DNA from: Candidatus Melainabacteria bacterium
GTDB lineage: Bacteria; Cyanobacteriota; Vampirovibrionia; 2-02-FULL-35-15
Direction of reading: 5' to 3'
DNA length: 34,382 nucleotides
Assembly: GCA_016201905.1 (NCBI GenBank)
Contig: JACQBQ010000033.1
Span: 1-34,382 of the forward strand
A model generated the notes under the pieces. That model ran no database searches and was not told the DNA's origin. It worked only from the letters and a program-made list of their open reading frames with translations. The position numbers were made by a program, and so were the translations under genes. Below are positions 1,740 to 34,382 of the stretch, in pieces. Numbering within the stretch: the first letter of the stretch is position 1; each line of letters begins with the position of its first letter.

Positions 1740-3137
1740 ATGAATCTCGTAAGAATAAGTTTAATTTTGGTCTTATGTTTTGTATTTCAATTTTTATTTT
1801 CTTTTAATTCAAATGCGAATTTGGTAAAGTTTACTCAAAACCAAACAAATACTTCTACAAATGATCATGTACCACCGGTAATTACTCTTACATTTCCAGA
1901 AGATCTCGATATCTTTTCTGACTCAAATACTGATGTCATCTTTACAGTAACAGACAACGTTTCTGTAAAACAAGTGCTTTTAAATGGAAACCCTGTTTCT
2001 CCTGCTACTGAAGCTCTGTATTCAGAAAATATATCATTAAAACTTGGAGAAAATTCAATTTCAATAATTGCAACGGACTCTTCTAATAACTCGTCCAATA
2101 CAAGTATTAAAGTTACATATGATCCATCTCATACAGATGAAGGTGATAATACTACAGATACAGAAGGCCAAACAGAAACTATCACTCTCCCGCCTGCAGT
2201 TGATAACTTAAATGCAACACTAATAGAACAATTCACAGCACTGAGTAATAAATTAATTGATATAGCATCTATAGGTTCAATAGAAATTGCAAATCCACCA
2301 CCAATCCCAGAAGGTGAGCCAGCCATGGTTCAAGTACCTGAGGTAGAAGGTTTGGAAAGAAATACAAATCCTGATGCTCCGCCAGAAATACCAAAAGGTT
2401 TTTCATTTGCAAGTACTATTGATTTTAATGAGAATAGTACAGTTACAATTTCAAACGAAGAAAAAGATGCCCAAAATACCGTGGTGTTAGTTGATGGTAC
2501 AGGAAAAACATTTCTTGTAGGGCTTGCATTTTTTAATGAGATCAATCAGGGAAACAATAATTCTTTAAGAAAAAATTATAGATTCCAAACTACAGGTGGA
2601 AATCCACTTGAATTAACAACTACACTCACAATTCCAGCAGATGCAAGTGAGGGTGATGCCACTGTTTCAATCTTAAATAAGAACACATCTCTAGCAAGTA
2701 TATCTTTAAAAGTTGCACCACAAAAAGAAATAAAAGTTGGAAAAAGAATTGTGGGAAGACCTCAAATTAAAGAGCCTATAATTGTTACTGTAAACAAAAA
2801 TGTTACAAAGCTAACATTAAAGACTAATGGTAAAAATTTCATTGGACGCTCTGCAATCATAGATGGAAAATTAGAAAGATTAGTTGCAAGAGCAAAGTTT
2901 TTTACAAATATAACTTTTGTTCCAAGTGATGGAATTAAAATTAAAAAGTTTTCACTGTTAAAAAATAAAATTACTTTAAAGGCAAATTTAGACAGTACTG
3001 TTAAACCTGGAATAAAATTATTCAATATAATTACTCCAAAAGGTGCAGACATTGGTGCAATTATTTTTCCCGATCCTATAACAGGTGGCAATTTAGAGGC
3101 TACCTCTAAACCAGAGGGCCTTATTTTAAATCATTAG
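1740..3137 (+). CDS. Secreted protein with a bacterial Ig-like domain
   Basis: 465 aa. Residues 1-27 form a signal peptide (basic start, long hydrophobic core, cleavage near FNSNA), so the product is exported. Residues of about 46-127 look like a cadherin/Ig-like beta-sandwich of the kind found in surface proteins: PPVITLTFPED at its start, TDNVSVKQVLLNG in the middle, LGENSISIIATD near the end. A Pro/Glu-rich linker follows, then a beta-rich C-terminal half rich in Lys, Asn, Thr and Ile. No catalytic motif, LPxTG motif or SLH domain is visible. No Shine-Dalgarno precedes the ATG. Its stop overlaps the convergent neighbour by 4 bp. An extracellular adhesive or structural role is likely; the partner is unknown. 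Confidence 0.8.
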   Translation: MNLVRISLILVLCFVFQFLFSFNSNANLVKFTQNQTNTSTNDHVPPVITLTFPEDLDIFSDSNTDVIFTVTDNVSVKQVLLNGNPVSPATEALYSENISLKLGENSISIIATDSSNNSSNTSIKVTYDPSHTDEGDNTTDTEGQTETITLPPAVDNLNATLIEQFTALSNKLIDIASIGSIEIANPPPIPEGEPAMVQVPEVEGLERNTNPDAPPEIPKGFSFASTIDFNENSTVTISNEEKDAQNTVVLVDGTGKTFLVGLAFFNEINQGNNNSLRKNYRFQTTGGNPLELTTTLTIPADASEGDATVSILNKNTSLASISLKVAPQKEIKVGKRIVGRPQIKEPIIVTVNKNVTKLTLKTNGKNFIGRSAIIDGKLERLVARAKFFTNITFVPSDGIKIKKFSLLKNKITLKANLDSTVKPGIKLFNIITPKGADIGAIIFPDPITGGNLEATSKPEGLILNH

Positions 3138-17299: not shown

Positions 17300-17839
17300 C
17301 TATTTTTTTACCAAAATAATTTTGCACAATAAAAGCCCTTTTATAATTTCTTCAGGTGTAGGTGGATCCCCTGGAATATAAACATCAACCGGAAGAAACT
17401 GATCTACTCTTCCCAGGCAAGCATAAGTATTTTTATAAATAGAACCATTGCATGCACCATCACCAAGTGCAACTACAATTTTTGGATATGGCATTGCAGC
17501 ATATGTTCTTTCCATTGCAACTTTTAAGTGCCTGGTAACGGGTCCACTTACAGTTAAAACATCAGCATGGCGAGGTGAGGCCGTAAAATCAATTCCAAAG
17601 CGGGTTATATCATAAATGGGATTAGAAAGAGCTAGAAGTTCTGCTTCTTCTGCATTGGAAGAACCAAGATCAAGATGACGAACAAGCAGCGATCTGCTCA
17701 AGGCAGACCTTTCTTTAAAGTTCAGATTTTGAATTCTTGAAAGATCAATTTTGTAAGTTTCAAAATCACTTGCATTAATAACAGGTGCCTTCTCAGTTAC
17801 TACACCTTTTTTCACCCACATTTTTAAAATGTTTAACAA
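17300..17839 (-). CDS. hyfI: HyfI/NuoB-like small subunit lacking all cluster cysteines
   Basis: 179 aa, group 4 hydrogenase small-subunit/NuoB fold: DLGSSNAEEAE (57-67), NPIYDITRFGIDFTASPRHADVL (73-95), SGPVT (98-102), ALGDGACNGSIY (124-135) and PVDVYIPGDPPTPEE (150-164). In cluster-bearing relatives the four [4Fe-4S] ligands are in GSCNGCE, GDCA and PGCPP. Here these are Ser61, Glu64, Gly128 and Asp158, so the proximal cluster cannot be bound in the usual way; remaining Cys are only 130, 141 and 172. Start: TTG at 17839 with AGGAGG (17852-17857) 12 nt upstream, or ATG at 17821 without one. Located between hyfG and the YaaH gene. Confidence 0.88.
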   Translation of the reverse strand: MLNILKMWVKKGVVTEKAPVINASDFETYKIDLSRIQNLNFKERSALSRSLLVRHLDLGSSNAEEAELLALSNPIYDITRFGIDFTASPRHADVLTVSGPVTRHLKVAMERTYAAMPYPKIVVALGDGACNGSIYKNTYACLGRVDQFLPVDVYIPGDPPTPEEIIKGLLLCKIILVKK

Positions 17840-17857
17840 ATTCTCTTATGTCCTCCT

Positions 17858-19492
17858 TTATCTATCCACACATGCATAACAAAGATTAAAGCTTTTATTT
17901 ACAAGCGGTCCATCAGGAACAATATTTTTTAAATTATCTTCACCCATTGTTGCCTGAGCCATCCCTCGCCAATTCATATAAGAAGCACTTCTTACATGAA
18001 AACGAAAAATTTTGCTTTCAGTATCAAGCATAATTGAATGCACAAGTTCTCCTTTAGCTGACTCTACTATTCCTAATCTGTGTTCATAGGCTGGAAATTG
18101 TTTTGGTACCACACTTACAATATCTCCACTTGGAAGATCTTCAACTAGTTTTTTAATTAGCTTTAGAGAATTATAAACTTCATCTATACGAACCTGTGTT
18201 CTTGTTAGTGCATCTCCATCTTCGTAAACTGGCACCTTAAATGCATAGTCTTTATAAGCTAGATATGGAAAATCACGTCTCACATCTTTATCAATTCCTG
18301 AACCCCGTGCACTAGGTCCAACTAACCCTAAAGAGTCTGCCATCTTTAAAGAAATAAAGCCTGTAGATTCCAGCCTGTCAAGAAGACTATCTGTATTTAA
18401 AATAAGTTTTTCCCATTCTTGAAATTGGTTCTTAAACTTTTCTAGCTCTGTAAATAAAATTTGAAACAAATCATCTGAAATATTTTTTTTCAGTCCACCA
18501 ATTGTATTTAGCCCACGTAAAAAACGATGCCCTGTAAGATTATGAATTAATCTCATTATCATTTCTCTGAGTCTACTAGCATGAGATGCGCCAAAACCAA
18601 AGCCCCCGCTAGAAGTAATAGCCATAAGATCAGCCATATGACTACTTATACGTTCCAGTTCAAGACATATAGTTCTAATAAAGATAGATCTTTTCGGTAC
18701 CTCAATATTTCCTAAAGTTTCTATTGCCAAACAAAAAGCATTTGAATGTGCATAAGCACACATTCCACATATATGCTCTGCCAAATTAAGCACATCTTCA
18801 ATACTTTTACCTTCAGCCATCTTTTCAATGCCTTTGTGAGTGTAAAACAGCTGAGCATCAAATTTATAAATCTCTTCACCAATTACACAAAAACGAAGAT
18901 GCCCTGGTTCAATAATTCCAGCATGAATAGGTCCCACAGCTATTTGATACATACCATCTCCATGTGGCTGACTAAATTCATGAGAAACTTCTGAAATCGG
19001 GATTTGCTTATCTAGCAAAAAATCCCTGCGCATAGGAAAGTGTTTTCCTCGTGGCCAATCTCTATGCAGTACTAAAGGATCAAGCTCTATACCTTGTGGA
19101 ATAATGCCAAAAAGATCATGGATTTCTCTTTCATACCAGTCTGCAGAAGGAAGCCTTTGACTAAGTGCAGGATAGGTAGGGTTTTCTTTGCCTAGAGCAA
19201 TCTCAAATGTTACAAGAACATTTGTATCGCTTGGGAGAAAAAATGAGAATACGGTGTAAAGCTTAAAGTTTCCATTTAAATGACGTTCATCTGTCACTGT
19301 CATTGTAACTAAAGATGATTTTAATTCTGTATGCCCAGAAATATACTCTAATATAATAGTCAAATAATCTTTTTCAATCACAAGGTGGAGATGATTTGGT
19401 GAGATAATTTTTAACTCTAAGAGATGACCTTTGAAAGCACCCTTTAAGGATTCAAAAAATAACTCTACATCATTTTTAATTAAGGTTTTCAT
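17858..19492 (-). CDS. hyfG: HyfG/HycE-like large subunit (NuoC-NuoD fusion)
   Basis: 544 aa. N-terminal 170 residues are a NuoC/30-kDa domain with the signature WYEREIHDLFGI (119-130). The rest is a [NiFe]-hydrogenase large subunit/NuoD. L1 motif is ICGMCAYAHS: Cys242, Cys245 and His249 are kept, though the usual Arg before ICG is His240. The L2 motif at the extreme C-terminus is NLCYACVDR: Cys538 and Cys541 kept, but the usual Asp-Pro before them is Asn-Leu. So all four Ni/Fe ligands are present. The protein ends right after this motif, leaving no C-terminal peptide for a maturation protease. The start overlaps the hyfF stop by 4 bp. Confidence 0.92.
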   Translation of the reverse strand: MKTLIKNDVELFFESLKGAFKGHLLELKIISPNHLHLVIEKDYLTIILEYISGHTELKSSLVTMTVTDERHLNGNFKLYTVFSFFLPSDTNVLVTFEIALGKENPTYPALSQRLPSADWYEREIHDLFGIIPQGIELDPLVLHRDWPRGKHFPMRRDFLLDKQIPISEVSHEFSQPHGDGMYQIAVGPIHAGIIEPGHLRFCVIGEEIYKFDAQLFYTHKGIEKMAEGKSIEDVLNLAEHICGMCAYAHSNAFCLAIETLGNIEVPKRSIFIRTICLELERISSHMADLMAITSSGGFGFGASHASRLREMIMRLIHNLTGHRFLRGLNTIGGLKKNISDDLFQILFTELEKFKNQFQEWEKLILNTDSLLDRLESTGFISLKMADSLGLVGPSARGSGIDKDVRRDFPYLAYKDYAFKVPVYEDGDALTRTQVRIDEVYNSLKLIKKLVEDLPSGDIVSVVPKQFPAYEHRLGIVESAKGELVHSIMLDTESKIFRFHVRSASYMNWRGMAQATMGEDNLKNIVPDGPLVNKSFNLCYACVDR

Positions 19493-20985
19493 AAAGCATG
19501 ACCTAGATTAACTATTTTTACTGATTCATTAAGAATCTGTAAGAGCGGTGGTGGAATCCAACAACCAAGCAAACAAACCATTGATAGAGGAATTAACATT
19601 GCAATTAAACTTGATCTGTTGATTTCACCTTTTGATATTTCATGCATATTACTACCTGAACTAGGTATTGGTCCTATAGCCATTTGAACCAAATGAAATG
19701 TTAGTCCACCAAAAACAATTGTCAAAAATAAAACAAAAAGTATACTTGCAATCCAATGATTCCCTTGTATTCCACCAGTAAGGATGTAAAACTCACTTGT
19801 AAAAATAGAAAACGGAGGAGAACCAGCAAGGGCAAGTCCACCAATTAAAAGAACAATTCCACTTATAGGCAACACTTGCATTGCTCCTTTAATGTGTTCC
19901 ATATCTTTGCTATGAAATTTCAGTGCAAGATTGCCCGAAGTAAAAAACATGAGTGATTTAACCATTGCATGATTTATCATATGAAATAAAGCACCAAAAA
20001 TTGCAGTTGTAGTTCCAAAACCCAAACCTGTAGCTATAATGCCAATATGTTCTAAGCTATGATATGCAAGCAATCGTTTTACCTGCCTCTGTACCAAGAT
20101 AAAAGGAACTGATATACCAATAGAGAGAAGCCCAAAAATTAAAATCATTTTATTTGTAAATTCTGCACCTACTGAAAGATTAGTTAAAATTGCAAATCTA
20201 ATAATGCTATAAATACCACACTTTATAAGTACCCCTGAAAGTAATGCACTTACTGGTGTTGGTGCCTCGCTATGTGCATCAGGAAGCCATGTATGCATCG
20301 GTGCAAGTCCAGCCTTTGTTCCAAAGCCAATTAAAATAAAAACAAATGCTACTTTCATAAGATGTGGATCTAGCTTATGAGCAATTGTAATTAAATAGTC
20401 CCAGTTTAATCCCTGTTCTCTAATGCCACCTGCATGGGTCACTGCATAATAACTTAAAACAATTCCAATCATTGCAAAGGCTATACCAACAGTGCAAAGA
20501 ATAATATATTTCCATGCTGCTTCAACAGGTGTTTCTTTATTGTAATAGCCTACTAAAAACGCAGAGACCAGAGTTGTTAATTCTATTGAAATCCATAGTA
20601 CACCCAAGCTATTTGCAGTAACGACCATAAGCATCGTTAGAATAAAAATGTTTAATAAAAAATAATATCGTTTAAGTTTCCAAGGATTTTGAATTTTTTC
20701 TTCTACATCATTATTAACCATATAACCAATTGAATAGAGGGAAGCAAGCAAGCTCAAAATGGTAACTAAAAAAATCATAAGTCCAGAAAGTGCATCAAGA
20801 TACACAGTATTTCTAAATGCATGTATTGAACCTTGTTGAATAATATCTTTGACAATTAGCAGACCAAGACCAAACAAAATAACCATTCCAATGGATTGGA
20901 TCCGCCCAATCCATTGTGATGATTTAGGGAGTAAACACAAGAGTCCTGTTATAAATGGAATTAAAAATAATAAGCTTACTTCCAT
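19489..20985 (-). CDS. hyfF: HyfF-like proton-pumping subunit (NuoN/M family)
   Basis: 498 aa, multi-helix antiporter-like subunit of group 4 hydrogenase complexes. Conserved ion-channel residues: Glu135 in WISIELTT, Lys224 in GFGTKAGLAPMHTWLPDAH and Lys255 in SGVLIK, plus KRLLAYHSLEHIGI and FHMINHAMVKSLMFF. GSPPFSIFTSEFYIL near the C-terminus is typical of HyfF/NuoN. These support an intact proton or sodium channel. One base separates it from hyfE and a 4-bp overlap joins it to hyfG. Confidence 0.92.
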   Translation of the reverse strand: MEVSLLFLIPFITGLLCLLPKSSQWIGRIQSIGMVILFGLGLLIVKDIIQQGSIHAFRNTVYLDALSGLMIFLVTILSLLASLYSIGYMVNNDVEEKIQNPWKLKRYYFLLNIFILTMLMVVTANSLGVLWISIELTTLVSAFLVGYYNKETPVEAAWKYIILCTVGIAFAMIGIVLSYYAVTHAGGIREQGLNWDYLITIAHKLDPHLMKVAFVFILIGFGTKAGLAPMHTWLPDAHSEAPTPVSALLSGVLIKCGIYSIIRFAILTNLSVGAEFTNKMILIFGLLSIGISVPFILVQRQVKRLLAYHSLEHIGIIATGLGFGTTTAIFGALFHMINHAMVKSLMFFTSGNLALKFHSKDMEHIKGAMQVLPISGIVLLIGGLALAGSPPFSIFTSEFYILTGGIQGNHWIASILFVLFLTIVFGGLTFHLVQMAIGPIPSSGSNMHEISKGEINRSSLIAMLIPLSMVCLLGCWIPPPLLQILNESVKIVNLGHAL

Positions 20986-20986
20986 T

Positions 20987-21676
20987 CTATCCTTTCAGCT
21001 TGCGCAGCTCTTCTACATTTATAGTGTCAAAAGATTGCTTAATTCGATAAACCCAAATACCCATAACAAGAGCACCTATAAGAAGATCAAGAAAGATTCC
21101 CATCTCAACTACTAAAGGCATTTCAAAAATTGTGTCAACAGTAAGAGCCAGGATGCCATTTTCCATTACATACAATCCCATTATCTGGGCAAATGCTTTT
21201 TTTCTGGTCATCATAATAAAAAGACCAATTAAAATCATTGATATAGAAGTACTTAATAAATTCGTAGATAAAACATGAACTTCTTTCCCAATTCCAATAT
21301 TAGTAGTTACCTCAAATACCAAAGCTATTAAGCTGCAAATAAGAAGCATTGAAGTCGGGAGACTGATATAAGTTTCAACCTCCCTGCGAATTTGAATCTT
21401 CTGTAAAACAAACATCAATATCCATGGGATTAAAAAACATTTTCCAAATAAAGTTATCCCACTTACCAGAAGTGCATTAGAGCTATGATTCATAACACCA
21501 GCAAAAAGCGTGATTAAAACCAGTCCAAAAGACTGAAAAACAAAAAGTTTTACCATTGTCTCAAGACGACGACAACCTGTCATTAAAATGCTTATAACAA
21601 GAACAATCCCAATAATATAACTGGACAGTTGTTGTATAGCCTGCACAGGTAAAAAATGATTTATAAAAGAAATCAA
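20987..21676 (-). CDS. hyfE: HyfE-like membrane subunit
   Basis: 229 aa, helical membrane protein of the HyfE family, an extended NuoK-like subunit of formate-hydrogenlyase-type complexes. Seen: repeated hydrophobic segments, KLFVFQSFGLVLITL, GITLFGKCFLIPWIL, and YVMENGILALTVDTIFEMPLVVEMGIFLDLLIGALVMG with the buried acidic residues characteristic of this family. Overlaps hyfC by 4 bp and is 1 bp from hyfF, so it is tightly coupled. Confidence 0.88.
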   Translation of the reverse strand: MISFINHFLPVQAIQQLSSYIIGIVLVISILMTGCRRLETMVKLFVFQSFGLVLITLFAGVMNHSSNALLVSGITLFGKCFLIPWILMFVLQKIQIRREVETYISLPTSMLLICSLIALVFEVTTNIGIGKEVHVLSTNLLSTSISMILIGLFIMMTRKKAFAQIMGLYVMENGILALTVDTIFEMPLVVEMGIFLDLLIGALVMGIWVYRIKQSFDTINVEELRKLKG

Positions 21677-22647
21677 AGACTAAGCCCTCCTGTACTTTTA
21701 TGAATACTTATAACAAGAGCAATAATAGAAATTACAAATGAAGCAACAAGAATATCTTTCACGCGAAAAAGTCTGACTTTAGCAATCATTGTTTCAATCA
21801 AAACAACAACTATGCAAACAACAAATATCTTAATTAAATAAAATACAAATGCCGGTAATATATTTGACCAATGCAAAGACAACGAATATCCCCAAGGGAA
21901 AAAGAGATTGGCAAGTAAAGAAATCACCAAAAGCTGCTTTATCCAACTTGCCCAAAACATAAGCCCAAGTAATTTCCCCGAATATTCAAGAAGCATACCT
22001 TCATGAATCATCGTCAACTCATAATGCGTTTCAGGATTATCAAATGGGACTCTCCCCATCTCTGCAATTCCTGCTATTAACAAAGAAATTGCAGCAAGAA
22101 CATAACCAGGGGTAAACAAATTAATCCCCTGACTTGAAAGCCAACTTACTATAACAGGCAGGTTTGTACTTCCTGCCATCAAAGTCAGAACAAACAAAGA
22201 AAGAAGCATGACCGGTTCAATAAGCATGGAAAGCATCATCTCGCGGCTGCTTGCCATACCACAAAACCCACTGCCAGGCTCCATAGCTGCGCTACACATA
22301 AAAAATCTTCCTAGTCCAAAAAGATAAATTAAAAGAATAATCCCTCCGAGAAAATACAGCTGAGTAATAGTAACAAAAGTGGGTACAATAAGACTTGCTA
22401 CAAGAACCGATGTGAAAACTATAAACGGTGTTACAAGAAAAACCCATGAGGTTTGATTCGAGACTACTGTTTCTTTGTGAAAATATTTTAGTAGATCGTA
22501 ATAACCCTGCATAAGCGGAGGTCCTTGACGGCTTTGTAAAATCGCTTTTAATTTTTTCATAAGTGTATTAATAAAAGGTGATAATGCCAGAACCACCAGT
22601 AACTGAAGAATGATTAAACAGATAGTTTGCAATGTAATGATTTTCAT
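21673..22647 (-). CDS. hyfC: HyfC/HycD-like subunit (NuoH family)
   Basis: 324 aa, NuoH-like membrane anchor that links the peripheral dimer to the ion-pumping arm. Motifs: QSRQGPPLMQGYYDLLK (38-54), SSREMMLSMLIEPV (133-146), AEMGRVPFDNPETHYELTMIHEG (195-217) with the acidic residues of the coupling loop, and LLEYSGK. Overlaps hyfB and hyfE by 4 bp on each side. Confidence 0.93.
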   Translation of the reverse strand: MKIITLQTICLIILQLLVVLALSPFINTLMKKLKAILQSRQGPPLMQGYYDLLKYFHKETVVSNQTSWVFLVTPFIVFTSVLVASLIVPTFVTITQLYFLGGIILLIYLFGLGRFFMCSAAMEPGSGFCGMASSREMMLSMLIEPVMLLSLFVLTLMAGSTNLPVIVSWLSSQGINLFTPGYVLAAISLLIAGIAEMGRVPFDNPETHYELTMIHEGMLLEYSGKLLGLMFWASWIKQLLVISLLANLFFPWGYSLSLHWSNILPAFVFYLIKIFVVCIVVVLIETMIAKVRLFRVKDILVASFVISIIALVISIHKSTGGLSL

Positions 22648-24602
22648 AGTCTAAGCCACACTAAACATAAAATTAAAGTAATAAAGATATAAAAGAGGTA
22701 AACCTGTAATATGCCTGACTGCATTGGCCTTACCTTATGAGAAAAACCTATGAGTCCATTAACAAGAGGAAGATAAATATATTTGTGATAAAAACTTTCA
22801 GGTGTGTGCATCTCTGAAAAAACTATTTTTAATGGCTGACTATAACCTGACGGTGTGTATTCATACTCTGGCTTTGGTGTAACACCACAACTCCATGTCT
22901 CTTCTTTTCTAAAAGACATACTTGTATTAAATTTAAAGAAGAAATAAACTAAAAGCAAAAGTAAAGTCATAAGTAAAAAGACCAGAGCTGGTGAAAGATA
23001 TGCAAATCCATCAGGGCCAAAGTTTACAAACAGTTTATTGACATTAAACAAATTTGATTTTATTTTTGCAGAAACAATGCTTTCACTTACATTTTCAAGT
23101 AGTGTCAGACCAAAAAAGGGTATAACTCCAAGACAAAGGCATAGAAATGCTAGTATTCTCATACCTAAGCGCATTGAGTATGAAACATTATGAGCATGCA
23201 AAGCAGTATGAGATCTGGGCATTGCCAGAAAAATCCCGGAAAAAGCTTTTACAAAAGTTGCAGCACAAATTGCTCCGGTAAATCCAAGTAATGCTGCACA
23301 GATAGGCGAAAAAATTTTCATTGCTTGTGAATGTATATGAAAAGATGAAAGCAGAGTCTGGAAGATAAGCCACTCGCTTATAAAACCATTGAATGGTGGA
23401 AATGCTGAAATTGCCAAGGCTCCAATTAAAAAGAAAAAAGAAGTCTGTGGCATAAGCTTAATCAGCCCACCCATTTTTTCCATGTTTCTTGTGTGAGTAA
23501 CAGAAATAACTGAACCAGCACACATAAACAAGAGACCCTTAAACAATGAATGATTTATAGTGTGAAGTAAGCCAGCAATAATAGAAATACCTGCAAGCTC
23601 TTTTTGTCCAAGACTAAAAAACACCATGCCAATTCCTATAGGAAGTAAAATTATTCCCATGTTTTCTATACTGCTAAAAGCCAGCATTCGTTTAATATCA
23701 ACTTCACCTGAAGCATAAATCATTCCAAGTATTGCAGTAAGTATTGAAATGCCAGCTAATATAAGTCCCCACCAGTATGGAAATGGAGACAGAAAATCAA
23801 AAACAAATCGTAAAATTCCATAAACCGCTGTTTTAATCATGACCCCTGACATAAGTGCAGAGATATGGCTGGGTGCAGCAGGATGTGCTTCAGGAAGCCA
23901 TATATGAAGCGGAATTAAGCCTGCCTTTGTTCCAAAGCCAATTAAGACAAAAATAAACAATATAAGCTTTAGTGCACCTGGCAACTGGTGGCCTATATTA
24001 TGAAAAGAGGCAAATGAAAAACTTCCAGTATATTTCGCTAGAATTAAAAAAATAAATAAAATAAAAGCAGAGCCAATATGTGTCATTAGAAGATAAATAA
24101 AGCCGGCATTTTTTGATTCTGCTTTGTTTGTATCAAAAATAACAAGAGCAAAAGAAATCAATGTCATACTCTCCCAGAGGAAAAGGAATAAAAAACCATT
24201 TGCTGCACACACTACAAGCAGCATAGAAAGCACAAATAAATGATACAAAGCACAAAGCACCCCGACATTTTTTTCAATGTATTCTGCCTGAAGATATCCC
24301 ACAGAATAAATCAAAACAGGGATACTCAGCATAGAAATCAACATTAAAAAAAATGCAGCTAGAGGATCTATAAGCAGTTCAAGTCTTCCAAATGGAAGCC
24401 CAAATGGAATATTAAAAATAAACTTACTCCTGTGTATTAGTATTAAAGCAGAGCTTAATAAACAAAGAGCAGATGCAATGATTCCAAAAATCGTTGAAGA
24501 AAAAATAGAAAGTTTTTTAGAAAAATTGTTTAATAAAAAAGATGAGATCGTAGCAAGAATAAAAAATAAAAATGAAAATTGAAGTAATTGGGTCTCATTC
24601 AT
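22644..24602 (-). CDS. hyfB: HyfB-like proton-pumping subunit (NuoL/M family)
   Basis: 652 aa, first gene of the operon. Antiporter-like protein with Glu144 in FLWESMTLIS, Lys226 in GFGTKAGLIPLHIWLPEAHPAAPSHISAL and Lys257 in SGVMIK, KRMLAFSSIENMGII, and AFPPFNGFISEWLIF. The long hydrophilic C-terminal part with SCGVTPKPEYEYTPSGYSQPLKIVF and the EMHTP segment matches HyfB/HycC. ATG at 24602 lacks a clear Shine-Dalgarno. Followed by hyfC with a 4-bp overlap. No hyfA, hyfD or hyfH (ferredoxin-like) gene accompanies it. Confidence 0.92.
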   Translation of the reverse strand: MNETQLLQFSFLFFILATISSFLLNNFSKKLSIFSSTIFGIIASALCLLSSALILIHRSKFIFNIPFGLPFGRLELLIDPLAAFFLMLISMLSIPVLIYSVGYLQAEYIEKNVGVLCALYHLFVLSMLLVVCAANGFLFLFLWESMTLISFALVIFDTNKAESKNAGFIYLLMTHIGSAFILFIFLILAKYTGSFSFASFHNIGHQLPGALKLILFIFVLIGFGTKAGLIPLHIWLPEAHPAAPSHISALMSGVMIKTAVYGILRFVFDFLSPFPYWWGLILAGISILTAILGMIYASGEVDIKRMLAFSSIENMGIILLPIGIGMVFFSLGQKELAGISIIAGLLHTINHSLFKGLLFMCAGSVISVTHTRNMEKMGGLIKLMPQTSFFFLIGALAISAFPPFNGFISEWLIFQTLLSSFHIHSQAMKIFSPICAALLGFTGAICAATFVKAFSGIFLAMPRSHTALHAHNVSYSMRLGMRILAFLCLCLGVIPFFGLTLLENVSESIVSAKIKSNLFNVNKLFVNFGPDGFAYLSPALVFLLMTLLLLLVYFFFKFNTSMSFRKEETWSCGVTPKPEYEYTPSGYSQPLKIVFSEMHTPESFYHKYIYLPLVNGLIGFSHKVRPMQSGILQVYLFYIFITLILCLVWLRL

Positions 24603-31149: not shown

Positions 31150-34100
31150 ATGAAAAGACCTTCCACTTCACTTGTATTGATTTTAATTTTATCTTTGTTA
31201 TTGACATTTTCCAATAATGTTTTTGCAGCAAAGAAAAATACTGCTACTACTTTACGGCCGATAAAAGCCATAAACAGTGAAGGGAAAACAAACATATATG
31301 GAAGTGTTTTAGATCCTTCAGTAAACCAAATATTCCTTCTTCTCCCTAGCCCACTTTTAAATTTAATTAGAAAACTAGGTCAACAAGGGTTAACGGTAAA
31401 TTTAAACTCTACAAATAATTCAACCAGTACTTTTTCAGTACCACCAGATGCCATTAGCATACAAAATAAAATGGTAAATAAAAAATCTGGCAAGTATTTA
31501 GTTGTAAATTTATATAACCTGCAAACCGAATCAGGAATATCAGTAACCCCAAATGCTCTGCCAAGTGATAACTATAAGCTAAGAGTTACAAGTACAGGAT
31601 TTGATGCAACTACTGATACTTTCAATTATCAAACTCCAACTCTTATTGTTGGTGTTGTAGATTCAAAAAACCCAGGTTTGGTTTCTATAGAAGACTTAGA
31701 TGGAAATACAATATCAGATAGAACTGTGGCAACAAATGCAGATGGAATATTTCTTACCGAAGTAAGAGCAAATAAAATATCTGAAGAAGTCGTAGCGAAA
31801 GAACAAAAAAAATCAAATACCAAATCAATAATGTTAAAAAACGATACTGCAAGCAATGATAACAATGGCACTGAAAACAGTACTGAAAAAATAAAAACAG
31901 GTTTGATTCACGCTGTTGTTGATAAGGATCTTTTTGCGGTAGTTTCTCTTAATAACAAAGTTGAAAGTAATGCAGATAAAGCAATAAAACCGATAAATGT
32001 AAATGAGGCTTCTACTCTAACAGCTAATTTAGCAAAAGAATATAAACCCTTAGCTATTGAAGTTACTAAAGAACAAGAAAATACAAGCCAAGAAAGTAAT
32101 AATCAACAAGGAGAATTTACAGATTTTGGTTGCGATATTTTTCAATTCTCTAGTCAATGCTCACAAGGCAATGAAGATTCATTTGCTTCAGCAGGTAAAG
32201 ATTTTAAGAGTTTTATTCAAAACACAACCTGCAATTTTCCTGGCTTTGATCTTATAAAATCAATAATAAGCTTGGTCTCAGATATATCAGCTGGTAAAGG
32301 TTATTGCGAATATGTTAATAGAGAAGAAAACAACAACAAAGCCTGCACAGCTTATTCAGAAGTTTTAAATAATTATAAGTCAAACACCACTACAAAGCTC
32401 CCTTGTCCTCCTGATTTTTGTGATGAGTTTAAAAACATTAGACCACCGAAATGCTTTACACCAACAGACTTTTGTAGTGAACAAACTACCAATAATCTGG
32501 CACAGATATGCAATGGACCAAATTGCAAACAGCCACCTGCTCCAATCTGTGTTAAAAAACCTAAAAAAGATCTTTTCTGTGCAAGGATTGGTTCTGACAT
32601 TGATCAATCTGAATGCAGTGACATCAACAGTATTAACAAAGATCTTTCTGGATGGAAAGTTGTTACAAATTCTAAAGGAAACGCATATTGTGTCCCTTCG
32701 ATTATTTCTCCTTCTACATTTAGCGGACAGCTTAAAGATGCTACTCCAGAAAAAATAGCTGAAGACTGTGAAGTAAATGCATGTCATAAAAAATGTGAGA
32801 CTGACTTTAGTTCAAGCTCTTTAAACTACACATCAATTACAAATTCATCTGTATATAAATGTGATGTTTGTGATTGTCATATTTCATGCGACATTGAAGC
32901 TGGAAGAAGATTTGATTGTACAAATCCAGGATCTAAATTCTATTCAATTAAATGTTGCAGTCAAAATATAATCGGTACTGTTTCATTTGGTACAGGCAAA
33001 AAGCCAGCATCAAATGATATAAGATCATGCTTATGTAATAATCCTAACAATTTTGATGATAAAGGATTTGCAAAGCAAGATGCACAGATATCCTGTTCAA
33101 ATAAATGTCCTCAGGGGTTTATACAAGACACCCAAGGAAATTGCGCTTGCCCACAAGGTCAAATTCAAGGTTTATCCGGAAGATGCGAAATATCTATCTG
33201 CCCAGCCTATTGTAAAAATATACCTCTAGTTAGAAAAGTTTTGGAACAACAAACTGGTACAAGTTTTGGTACATACTACCCTCCATACGTTCCGCCTTAC
33301 CCGACATATGGTTCTACTTCACCCTCATTTAATAACACTACAACAGGTGGATCTACTTCATCAACAATTCCACTTGAATGTAGGCCATGCATTGGAAGTG
33401 GGGTAATTAATACCTGCCCAGATGGAAAAGTAAAAGACCCATACACAGGTTTATGTTTACCTCAAGCGAAATGTGGTTCGGATCAATATGCTGACTCAGA
33501 TAGAATATGCAGATGTAACTCTGATGGATCGATTGCTACTAGTCTTGGGCCAGAAGGATGCAAAAAACAATTCAATACCTGTACCGGTAATCTTGTACCA
33601 AATCCAAACAATGGACCCGATCAACCTTCTTGTTTATGCCCAGAAGGGTTACCATATTTTTATGGTGGAAACTGTGTAATTCAATGCCCAGCACTTCCTA
33701 CATTTGCTTCTACCTCTCCAACTTTTGGCAGCACATCATATACTTATGGCTCTACCTCTCCAACTTTTGCTTCTACTTCATACACATATGGTTCTACTCC
33801 AAGTCGTATAATACTTCACTCGCATAGCAGAACTAGTTTTCGATTAAATGTACCAATACCATGTGGTACCTCAAATAACAGAGTCTGTGCTTCCGGTGAA
33901 ATCCCATCTACAAGTAACTGTTCCTGTGCAAGCCCAGGATATGTTTCAGGTCCAAACACTCCATGCCAATGTCCTCCTGCATACAGCATTGCCTATTCAG
34001 CACAGGGTTGTGGTAACACCAGCACAACTTGCCCACCTCCTTATGTTACAAACCCAAATGGCAACCCACCTTGTAAATGTCCAGATGCTACACCAGTTTC

Positions 34101-34382
34101 TTATAACAGCACATGTGTAGCGACCTGTCCATCAGGTTTAACAGCTGGCTATCCACCATCATATGGTAGTAATTACACCCCAATGTTAGCTTGTCTATGC
34201 CCAGATAAATCTTATCCAAATTATACTGGTCAGTGTGGGACTTCATCAAATTATTGTGCTCCAGCAATATCTACAACAACTGGTTGTACGTGTAATCCTG
34301 GTGGTGGTGCATATAATTTAAACGGATATTGTACCTGTCCAAGTGGTTCTAGCACAGCATATACAGCAGCAACTGGCTGTGG
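31150..34382 (+). CDS. Very large secreted cysteine-rich protein (3' end outside window)
   Basis: The frame is open from ATG 31150 to the last base: 1077 complete codons and no stop. Signal peptide: MKRPSTSLVLILILSLLL, cleavage near NNVFA (residue 26). Residues 27-327 contain no cysteine and look beta-rich, with a stretch like a carboxypeptidase-regulatory-type domain (SIEDLDGNTISDRTVATNADGIF). From Cys328 on the protein is densely cysteine-rich (more than 60 Cys by eye), in EGF/TIL-like patterns such as C-x-C-P-x-G, CPQG, CPEG and CPDG, with Tyr/Gly/Ser/Thr-Pro spacers. Five 7-residue repeats lie at about 850-884. No recognised catalytic domain. No Shine-Dalgarno precedes the ATG. Likely a disulfide-bonded surface or extracellular structural protein; role unknown. 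Confidence 0.85.
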   Translation, partial: MKRPSTSLVLILILSLLLTFSNNVFAAKKNTATTLRPIKAINSEGKTNIYGSVLDPSVNQIFLLLPSPLLNLIRKLGQQGLTVNLNSTNNSTSTFSVPPDAISIQNKMVNKKSGKYLVVNLYNLQTESGISVTPNALPSDNYKLRVTSTGFDATTDTFNYQTPTLIVGVVDSKNPGLVSIEDLDGNTISDRTVATNADGIFLTEVRANKISEEVVAKEQKKSNTKSIMLKNDTASNDNNGTENSTEKIKTGLIHAVVDKDLFAVVSLNNKVESNADKAIKPINVNEASTLTANLAKEYKPLAIEVTKEQENTSQESNNQQGEFTDFGCDIFQFSSQCSQGNEDSFASAGKDFKSFIQNTTCNFPGFDLIKSIISLVSDISAGKGYCEYVNREENNNKACTAYSEVLNNYKSNTTTKLPCPPDFCDEFKNIRPPKCFTPTDFCSEQTTNNLAQICNGPNCKQPPAPICVKKPKKDLFCARIGSDIDQSECSDINSINKDLSGWKVVTNSKGNAYCVPSIISPSTFSGQLKDATPEKIAEDCEVNACHKKCETDFSSSSLNYTSITNSSVYKCDVCDCHISCDIEAGRRFDCTNPGSKFYSIKCCSQNIIGTVSFGTGKKPASNDIRSCLCNNPNNFDDKGFAKQDAQISCSNKCPQGFIQDTQGNCACPQGQIQGLSGRCEISICPAYCKNIPLVRKVLEQQTGTSFGTYYPPYVPPYPTYGSTSPSFNNTTTGGSTSSTIPLECRPCIGSGVINTCPDGKVKDPYTGLCLPQAKCGSDQYADSDRICRCNSDGSIATSLGPEGCKKQFNTCTGNLVPNPNNGPDQPSCLCPEGLPYFYGGNCVIQCPALPTFASTSPTFGSTSYTYGSTSPTFASTSYTYGSTPSRIILHSHSRTSFRLNVPIPCGTSNNRVCASGEIPSTSNCSCASPGYVSGPNTPCQCPPAYSIAYSAQGCGNTSTTCPPPYVTNPNGNPPCKCPDATPVSYNSTCVATCPSGLTAGYPPSYGSNYTPMLACLCPDKSYPNYTGQCGTSSNYCAPAISTTTGCTCNPGGGAYNLNGYCTCPSGSSTAYTAATGC
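33697..33801 (+). repeat. Five in-frame 21-bp tandem repeats
   Basis: Units at 33697, 33718, 33739, 33760 and 33781 encode PTFASTS, PTFGSTS, YTYGSTS, PTFASTS and YTYGSTP. A related YGSTSPSF lies at about 33308. Codons differ between units, so the protein repeat is older or selected, rather than fresh DNA duplication. Confidence 0.85.

Follow-up and report, generated by a model that had tools for sequence, protein, structure and literature searches.

We identified, at the end of the 34,382-nucleotide stretch analysed here (the window), a gene for a giant cysteine-rich protein whose family is restricted to its lineage and whose head and tail have different histories. We put at about even the chance that this protein is exported as a fibre stapled by disulfides, whose far end is Ig-like and whose role is most likely attachment or cell contact.

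The giant open reading frame runs from 31150 to 34380 on the plus strand, is open up to the window end and encodes 1077 residues in the window. The window is contig C38 of genome G000, which belongs to a Candidatus Melainabacteria bacterium, a relative of cyanobacteria that does not photosynthesise. Its final 141 bases recur without a difference at the end of C51, another contig of G000. Across this overlap the frame stays open until a stop codon on C51, which gives a full length of 1355 residues with 96 Cys. The window edge was ruled out as a frame end or frameshift, as 278 further residues follow in frame on C51. The join of C38 and C51 is supported by the exact overlap and the open frame, as well as by a permease-like gene, which lies beyond the 3′ end of the giant, one gene further on and on the opposite strand, and which directly adjoins the giant homologue in genomes G007, G001 and G008. 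It is further supported by the C-terminal domain, which is encoded on C51 and is homologous to those of the relatives in the same three genomes. Moreover, the reading frames of giant homologues in other genera were intact. A reading made beforehand from the sequence alone (the sequence-only reading) had described an incomplete protein of more than 1000 residues with a signal peptide and had advised extension to the stop codon; the extension bore this description out, and the end or shift of the frame just past the window that it had named as counter-evidence was absent. Within the window, the giant is neighboured by genes of the CorA and DUF2490 types and by an RND pump. The permease-, epimerase-, TrpRS- and transketolase-like neighbour genes were named by eye where they were absent from the Pfam results. 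The features are as follows.

31150..34382, plus strand: giant Cys-rich protein, putatively secreted, first 1077 of its 1355 residues (open reading frame)
Contig C51 (L003 6826-7660), minus strand: remaining 278 residues and stop codon, placed by the exact 141-base overlap with the window
31150..31227, plus strand: probable Sec signal peptide, residues 1-26 (by eye: hydrophobic core followed by VFAA and KK, at a column that relatives conserve)
31228..32130, plus strand: Cys-free head, residues 27-327, of which residues ~35-164 were modelled as an Ig-like beta sandwich
32131..33219, plus strand: conserved Cys-rich middle, residues 328-690, with 34 Cys, many of them invariant among relatives (low-confidence model)
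33250..33378, plus strand: Ser/Thr/Tyr/Pro/Gly-rich linker, residues 701-743, no Cys (from the sequence)
33694..33825, plus strand: Cys-free linker of STSPTF/STSYTYG repeats, residues 849-892 (from the sequence)
33886..34011, plus strand: six-Cys tail module, residues 913-954 (Cys spacing)
34030..34236, plus strand: second tail-module type, residues 961-1029, CPPPY...CKCPDATP...CVATCP...CLCPDKSYP...C, which recurs in relatives
34255..34380, plus strand: six-Cys tail module, residues 1036-1077, within the 141-base overlap of both contigs
Contig C51: four further six-Cys modules, residues 1086-1123, 1131-1170, 1178-1222 and 1225-1264 (Cys spacing)

A hydrophobic N-terminal stretch ending in VFAAKK was seen by eye in the protein itself, and a signal peptide also in a 15-row alignment of its homologues; the giant is thus probably exported by Sec. 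The first Cys is residue 328, and its absence from the first 327 residues has a chance of ~1e-12 at uniform density. All 96 Cys follow, so that the Cys-free head of about 300 residues and the dense Cys behind it, both noticed earlier, were confirmed. The Cys content of middle and tail reaches ~9%. From residue 325 on, 19 CxC spacings were counted against 8.1 expected, with a maximum of 17 in 2000 shuffles, and a gap-11 Cys spacing occurred 15 times in the giant against 3.1 expected. The six-Cys module is 40 residues long and reads C-x11-CxC-x11-CxC-x10-C (modal spacing 11-1-11-1-10). In 22 collected Cys-rich proteins we found 74 instances, overlapping or separate, of which 19 had the modal spacing, and eight columns were invariant among the 22 units aligned. 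The second, longer module type recurs as well, with 11 pattern matches. The C-terminal domain, the last 89 residues of the giant, was confidently matched in 7 of the 22 proteins, in one to four copies each. We infer that the Cys of the giant are paired as disulfides. With hand-chosen, alignment-guided signal-peptide cuts that were selected after seeing the data, 12 of the 15 complete proteins had an even mature Cys count (p 0.018), and with an automatic cutting rule 10 of 15 did (p 0.15); two further proteins with unread residues were left out of both counts. As the outcome hinges on where the signal peptides are cut, Cys parity is weak as proof of pairing.

We then compared the giant with known families. 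Neither Pfam, NCBIfam nor PHROGs gave a match over cut-off, and a PDB sequence search with the giant returned nothing at E <0.1; the well-known bacterial family that would have spoken against the sequence-only reading was therefore not encountered. The titles and abstract openings covered by a literature search held no published work on this giant-protein family. The Cys spacing had been likened to EGF and TIL domains. An EGF-like domain has six Cys, of which the fourth and fifth make up its only CxC, and a TIL domain has ten Cys. The module here, with six Cys and two CxC pairs per 40 residues, departs from both patterns, and at E <=10 or <=1 Pfam gave no EGF family for the protein, its C51 part or the tails of five relatives, and no TIL match. 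The protein has small Cys-rich modules in a tandem array, but their assignment to EGF or TIL as Pfam defines them did not stand. The suggested resemblance to eukaryotic extracellular proteins likewise gave no indication of a eukaryotic origin, as the protein family was found in one Melainabacteria family only; the best PDB sequence for a module profile, the ookinete EGF-type protein Pfs28, was non-significant (E 0.74). A viral origin was also rejected, as the 84 pattern stretches in viral_contigs included no relative. Judged by these sequence comparisons, the cysteine module of the giant is absent from every library searched.

Structural models were obtained for both ends. The AlphaFold2 model of head and middle (eight sequences, residues 27-697) had a mean pLDDT of 60.9; between about residues 37 and 160, most blocks reached ~70-86. 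Superposition of the first head domain on Ig domains gave a best VIA Z of 7.0, a middling score below 8, the level that excludes common arrangements, and the first fold-search list for this model was dominated by antibodies and held generic Ig-like matches only. The C-terminal domain was modelled in the relative L052 at pLDDT ~90, with a best VIA Z of 7.2, again below 8. Foldseek returned 51 chains at E <=0.001 for this model, including Bap, SiiE and GhpA together with many receptors, antibodies and Ig/FN3 proteins; these matches support an Ig-like fold of the C-terminal domain, not a function. In Pfam, CarboxypepD_reg scored 15.5-16.7 bits against the head (curated cut-off 32.3), and the bacterial Ig-like family Big_6 scored 16.7 bits against the C-terminal domain of L052 (curated cut-off 27.6), with no Big_6 match listed for the giant itself. 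The models of the middle and most tail modules were poor. Structure prediction, which had been proposed as a check, thus suggested Ig-like ends, with low confidence for the Cys-rich middle and most of the tail. No anchor or outer-membrane export route was identified for the giant, and NCBIfam, which presumably holds models of LPXTG, PEP-CTERM and T9SS C-terminal sorting signals, gave no such match at E <=1 for the true C-terminus and two relatives.

The protein family of the giant is lineage-restricted. A search with the single protein gave matches in 10 of 60 genomes, all within its own family. A head profile matched 12 of 289 genomes of the class, namely 10 of the 11 in the family, where G004 is the sole genome without a match, and 2 of the 278 others, both weakly (E 6.5e-4 and 8.5e-4) and at model positions 1-67 only (~67 residues). 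The six-Cys module occurred in 8 of the 289 class genomes and, in a sample of 386 genomes from the phylum, in 6; every one of these genomes belongs to the same family, within which G002, G004 and G006 lack it. In a species-representative collection, 24 stretches met a search pattern and five loci encoded relatives, all of them Candidatus Melainabacteria; these loci lie in G007 (MFRM01), G001 (DUDS01), G009 (JAHFBF01) and G005 (MFRN01).

Paralogues, which the sequence-only reading had advised to look for, were found, with up to four head-bearing places per genome: four each in G003 and G005, three in G008, and in G000 one gene on contig C42 in addition to the giant. This own-genome paralogue (L063 7866-10859) combines the same head type with a Gly/Pro-rich tail that ends in poly-proline, and it lies beside trpS-like genes, a locus that is occupied by a head-bearing gene in most relatives too. 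Proteins of the epimerase/permease locus and of the DsbA locus carry a Cys-rich tail, and those of the trpS-like locus carry the same head type with mostly Gly/Pro/Gln-rich or poly-proline tails. At L046 1865-8321 (contig C6 of G003), a head-only reading frame, a separate frame with ten six-Cys modules and a DUF4215-like protein with 86 Cys follow one another, an arrangement for which a split gene, a frameshift and an error in assembly are the candidate causes.

A secreted-looking companion protein with a conserved head and a low-complexity tail is encoded directly upstream of the giant in G007 and G001, and in G003 upstream of the tandem pair. As its profile matched 6 of the 11 family genomes, G000 not among them, the companion is not required as a fixed partner. 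At L035 5704-7392, L036 11676-14102 and L040 12208-14610 we observed a secreted-looking protein family whose head is conserved and whose tails are of low complexity (Asp-rich, PSPSPA repeats, Ala/Gln/Lys coiled-coil type); it had no Pfam match over cut-off. Far upstream in the window, the product of 1740-3137 on the plus strand matched Glucodextran_B (Pfam) and, at 52% over 313 residues, the protein encoded directly upstream of the second giant of G007 (L038 2144-3745).

The histories of head and tail were compared by identity at fourfold-degenerate sites, measured against the codon-usage expectation with permutations, between the giant gene and G007a from another genus. Identity was at expectation in the head (36% versus 36%) and in the permease gene (42% versus 43%; 1168 of 2000 permutations reached the observed value), and it did not exceed expectation in the epimerase gene either (38% versus 33%; 309 of 2000). 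The whole tail, however, showed 58% identity against 38% expected, a value reached in 0 of 2000 permutations. Among 14 windows scanned, residues 1081-1170 (72% versus 50%) and 1171-1260 (78% versus 38%) stood out, each with 0 of 300 permutations, and the two DNAs matched at 84.6% in a stretch of 677 bases and at 90.8% in one of 185. The excess was weaker in the C-terminal domain window (59 versus 46; 13 of 300), where comparison with G001 gave 59 versus 38 (1 of 300). The head and the tail thus have different histories, and the fourfold sites of the head and of the neighbouring genes are saturated in this pair.

Other pairs gave mixed results. The tail of the giant showed no overall excess with G001, G009a or G005b (445, 221 and 326 of 2000 permutations) and a modest one with G007b (30 of 2000). 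Between G007a and G001 the tail was in excess (4 of 2000) and the head was not (400 of 2000), and G005a and G005b showed a tail-only excess (36 of 2000). Both head and tail were in excess between G007b and G005b (0 and 0 of 2000), and mildly so between G005b and G009a (24 and 29 of 2000). G005a and G009b, which belong to one genus, shared 64% residue identity in the head with an excess (0 of 2000), but only 36% in the tail (300 of 2000), while between G003a and G008 the tail had no excess (1687 of 2000) and that of the head was marginal (54 of 2000). Our reading of these patterns is that tail stretches were exchanged and replaced, clearly in one inter-genus pair and suggestively in others; it is possible that the shared tail stretch is a chimeric assembly.

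With respect to oxidative folding, a Thioredoxin_4/DsbA-type gene was present in all 11 genomes of the family. The DsbA-like copies of G000 lie on contig C35, with a CPFC motif, and on contig C59, with one Cys only; the latter (L065 8938-9681) encodes a DsbA-fold protein whose single Cys leaves it without a CxxC pair. Pfam searches for DsbB (PF02600) and VKOR (PF07884) detected neither in any of the 11 genomes, while the same searches were positive in control genomes. The proposed look for Dsb or VKOR genes was thus answered for DsbA only, and VKOR and DsbB were dismissed as folding partners of the giant. In G009 and G005 (2 of the 11 genomes, one genus), the DsbA-like gene, which has a CPFC motif, lies divergently beside a tandem pair of giants, a placement that may be chance. 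On contig C35 of G000, a 470-residue protein (L064 9888-11300), in which a thrombospondin type 3 repeat is combined with a papain-fold domain of toxin type that barely exceeds the cut-off, is encoded between DsbA-like and amino-acid-permease-like genes, where G005 and G009 carry the tandem giants. The window also holds, at 17300-24602 on the minus strand, a Complex-I-like cluster (Pfam Complex1_49kDa, 30kDa, Oxidored_q6 and antiporter subunits), whose large subunit also matches NiFeSe_Hases; the cluster probably represents a group 4 [NiFe] hydrogenase of the membrane-bound kind, or a relative.

Based on this anatomy, we propose that Sec would export the giant as a fibre of modular build, located on the surface or outside the cell. 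Its constant part would be the conserved head, an Ig-like domain followed by the disulfide-rich middle; the six-Cys-module tail would be an extended rod stapled by disulfides, and the C-terminal Ig-like domain or domains would make contact at the far end, much as in giant adhesins or contact fibres. The number of tail cassettes would vary, and recombination between relatives would swap them onto a locus-fixed head, which would diversify whatever the far end touches. Adhesin, sheath and host-contact protein had all been suggested earlier; the domain order and the Ig-like ends make such roles plausible, but the tests do not separate the three.

The main rival of the fibre or adhesin reading is a structural coat, sheath or matrix protein, in which disulfide-cross-linked secreted chains would form a layer without a specific receptor. 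The dense Cys and the Ser/Thr/Gly/Pro-rich low-complexity linkers would suit such a layer, the paralogues encoded at the trpS-like locus have Gly/Pro/Gln-rich or poly-proline tails of the kind seen in matrix proteins, and S-layer chains are among the generic fold matches. However, the exchange of tails between genera fits a variable contact surface better, the several paralogues of a genome have differing tails, and the predominance of even mature Cys counts points, if weakly, to pairing within the chain; we regard a sheath as rather unlikely. Free thiols that bind metal, making the giant a metal- or redox-active Cys store, would agree with its Cys content, with the lack of detected DsbB and VKOR in the 11 genomes and with the anaerobic life suggested by the hydrogenase-like cluster. 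This is nevertheless improbable, given the Ig-like ends, the CPFC-bearing DsbA-like protein of the same genome and Cys that are spaced out in recurring modules, not clustered as in metallothioneins.

A conserved head, a variable tail and recombination would also be expected of a secreted toxin or polymorphic effector with variable C-terminal cargo, and the DsbA locus of G000 has the protein with thrombospondin type 3 and papain-fold toxin-type domains at the position that the giant pair takes in two other genomes. Yet Pfam, NCBIfam and PHROGs give the giant no enzymatic or toxin domain, its C-terminus is Ig-like and is repeated within single proteins of relatives, and no immunity-like gene was noticed downstream, which makes cargo delivery very improbable. 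We give hardly any credence to an array of TIL-type secreted inhibitors against host or predator proteases: its tandem small Cys-rich modules are TIL-like superficially, but they lack both a Pfam TIL match and the ten Cys of that domain.

The fibre reading can be taken one step further, though we hold this step to be doubtful. Heads at fixed loci and disulfide-rich tail cassettes of a new type, swapped between genera, would then form a lineage-specific surface-diversification system in hydrogenase-bearing organisms, which would export ~100 Cys per chain without either known DsbA re-oxidase. If this were true, an unrecognised DsbA oxidase would be implied; what re-oxidises DsbA in genomes where DsbB and VKOR both escape detection is the puzzle raised. 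Metagenomes are the main source of knowledge on the Melainabacteria of this family, and giants with a constant head and exchangeable tails would offer a concrete handle on how they touch surfaces or partners.

Several known systems share features with the giant. The disulfide-cross-linked envelope proteins of Chlamydia differ from it in size and domain order, and Chlamydia has DsbB, of which the 11 genomes here show none. Like the giant, they are Cys-rich, and they depend on Dsb chemistry (PMC6752827). Big_6 and CarboxypepD_reg have a weak likeness to the C-terminal domain of a relative and to the head, respectively, all under the curated cut-offs. Eukaryotic EGF-repeat extracellular proteins, like the giant, have tandem six-Cys modules of ~40 residues, for which the model shows short strands, and Pfs28 and giant-lens gave weak, non-significant sequence matches to the module, which differs in its two CxC pairs and its lack of a Pfam EGF match. 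The giant adhesin SiiE, the biofilm adhesin Bap and the Aureispira grappling-hook protein GhpA are among the Foldseek matches of the C-terminal domain, although these matches are generic (TM 0.15-0.24 on the query) and the giant has no recognised type 1 or type 9 secretion signal. Like the giant in the proposed model, they are very long, exported and modular, with tandem Ig-like domains near the far end, whereas the stalk of the giant would be built of disulfide-rich modules.
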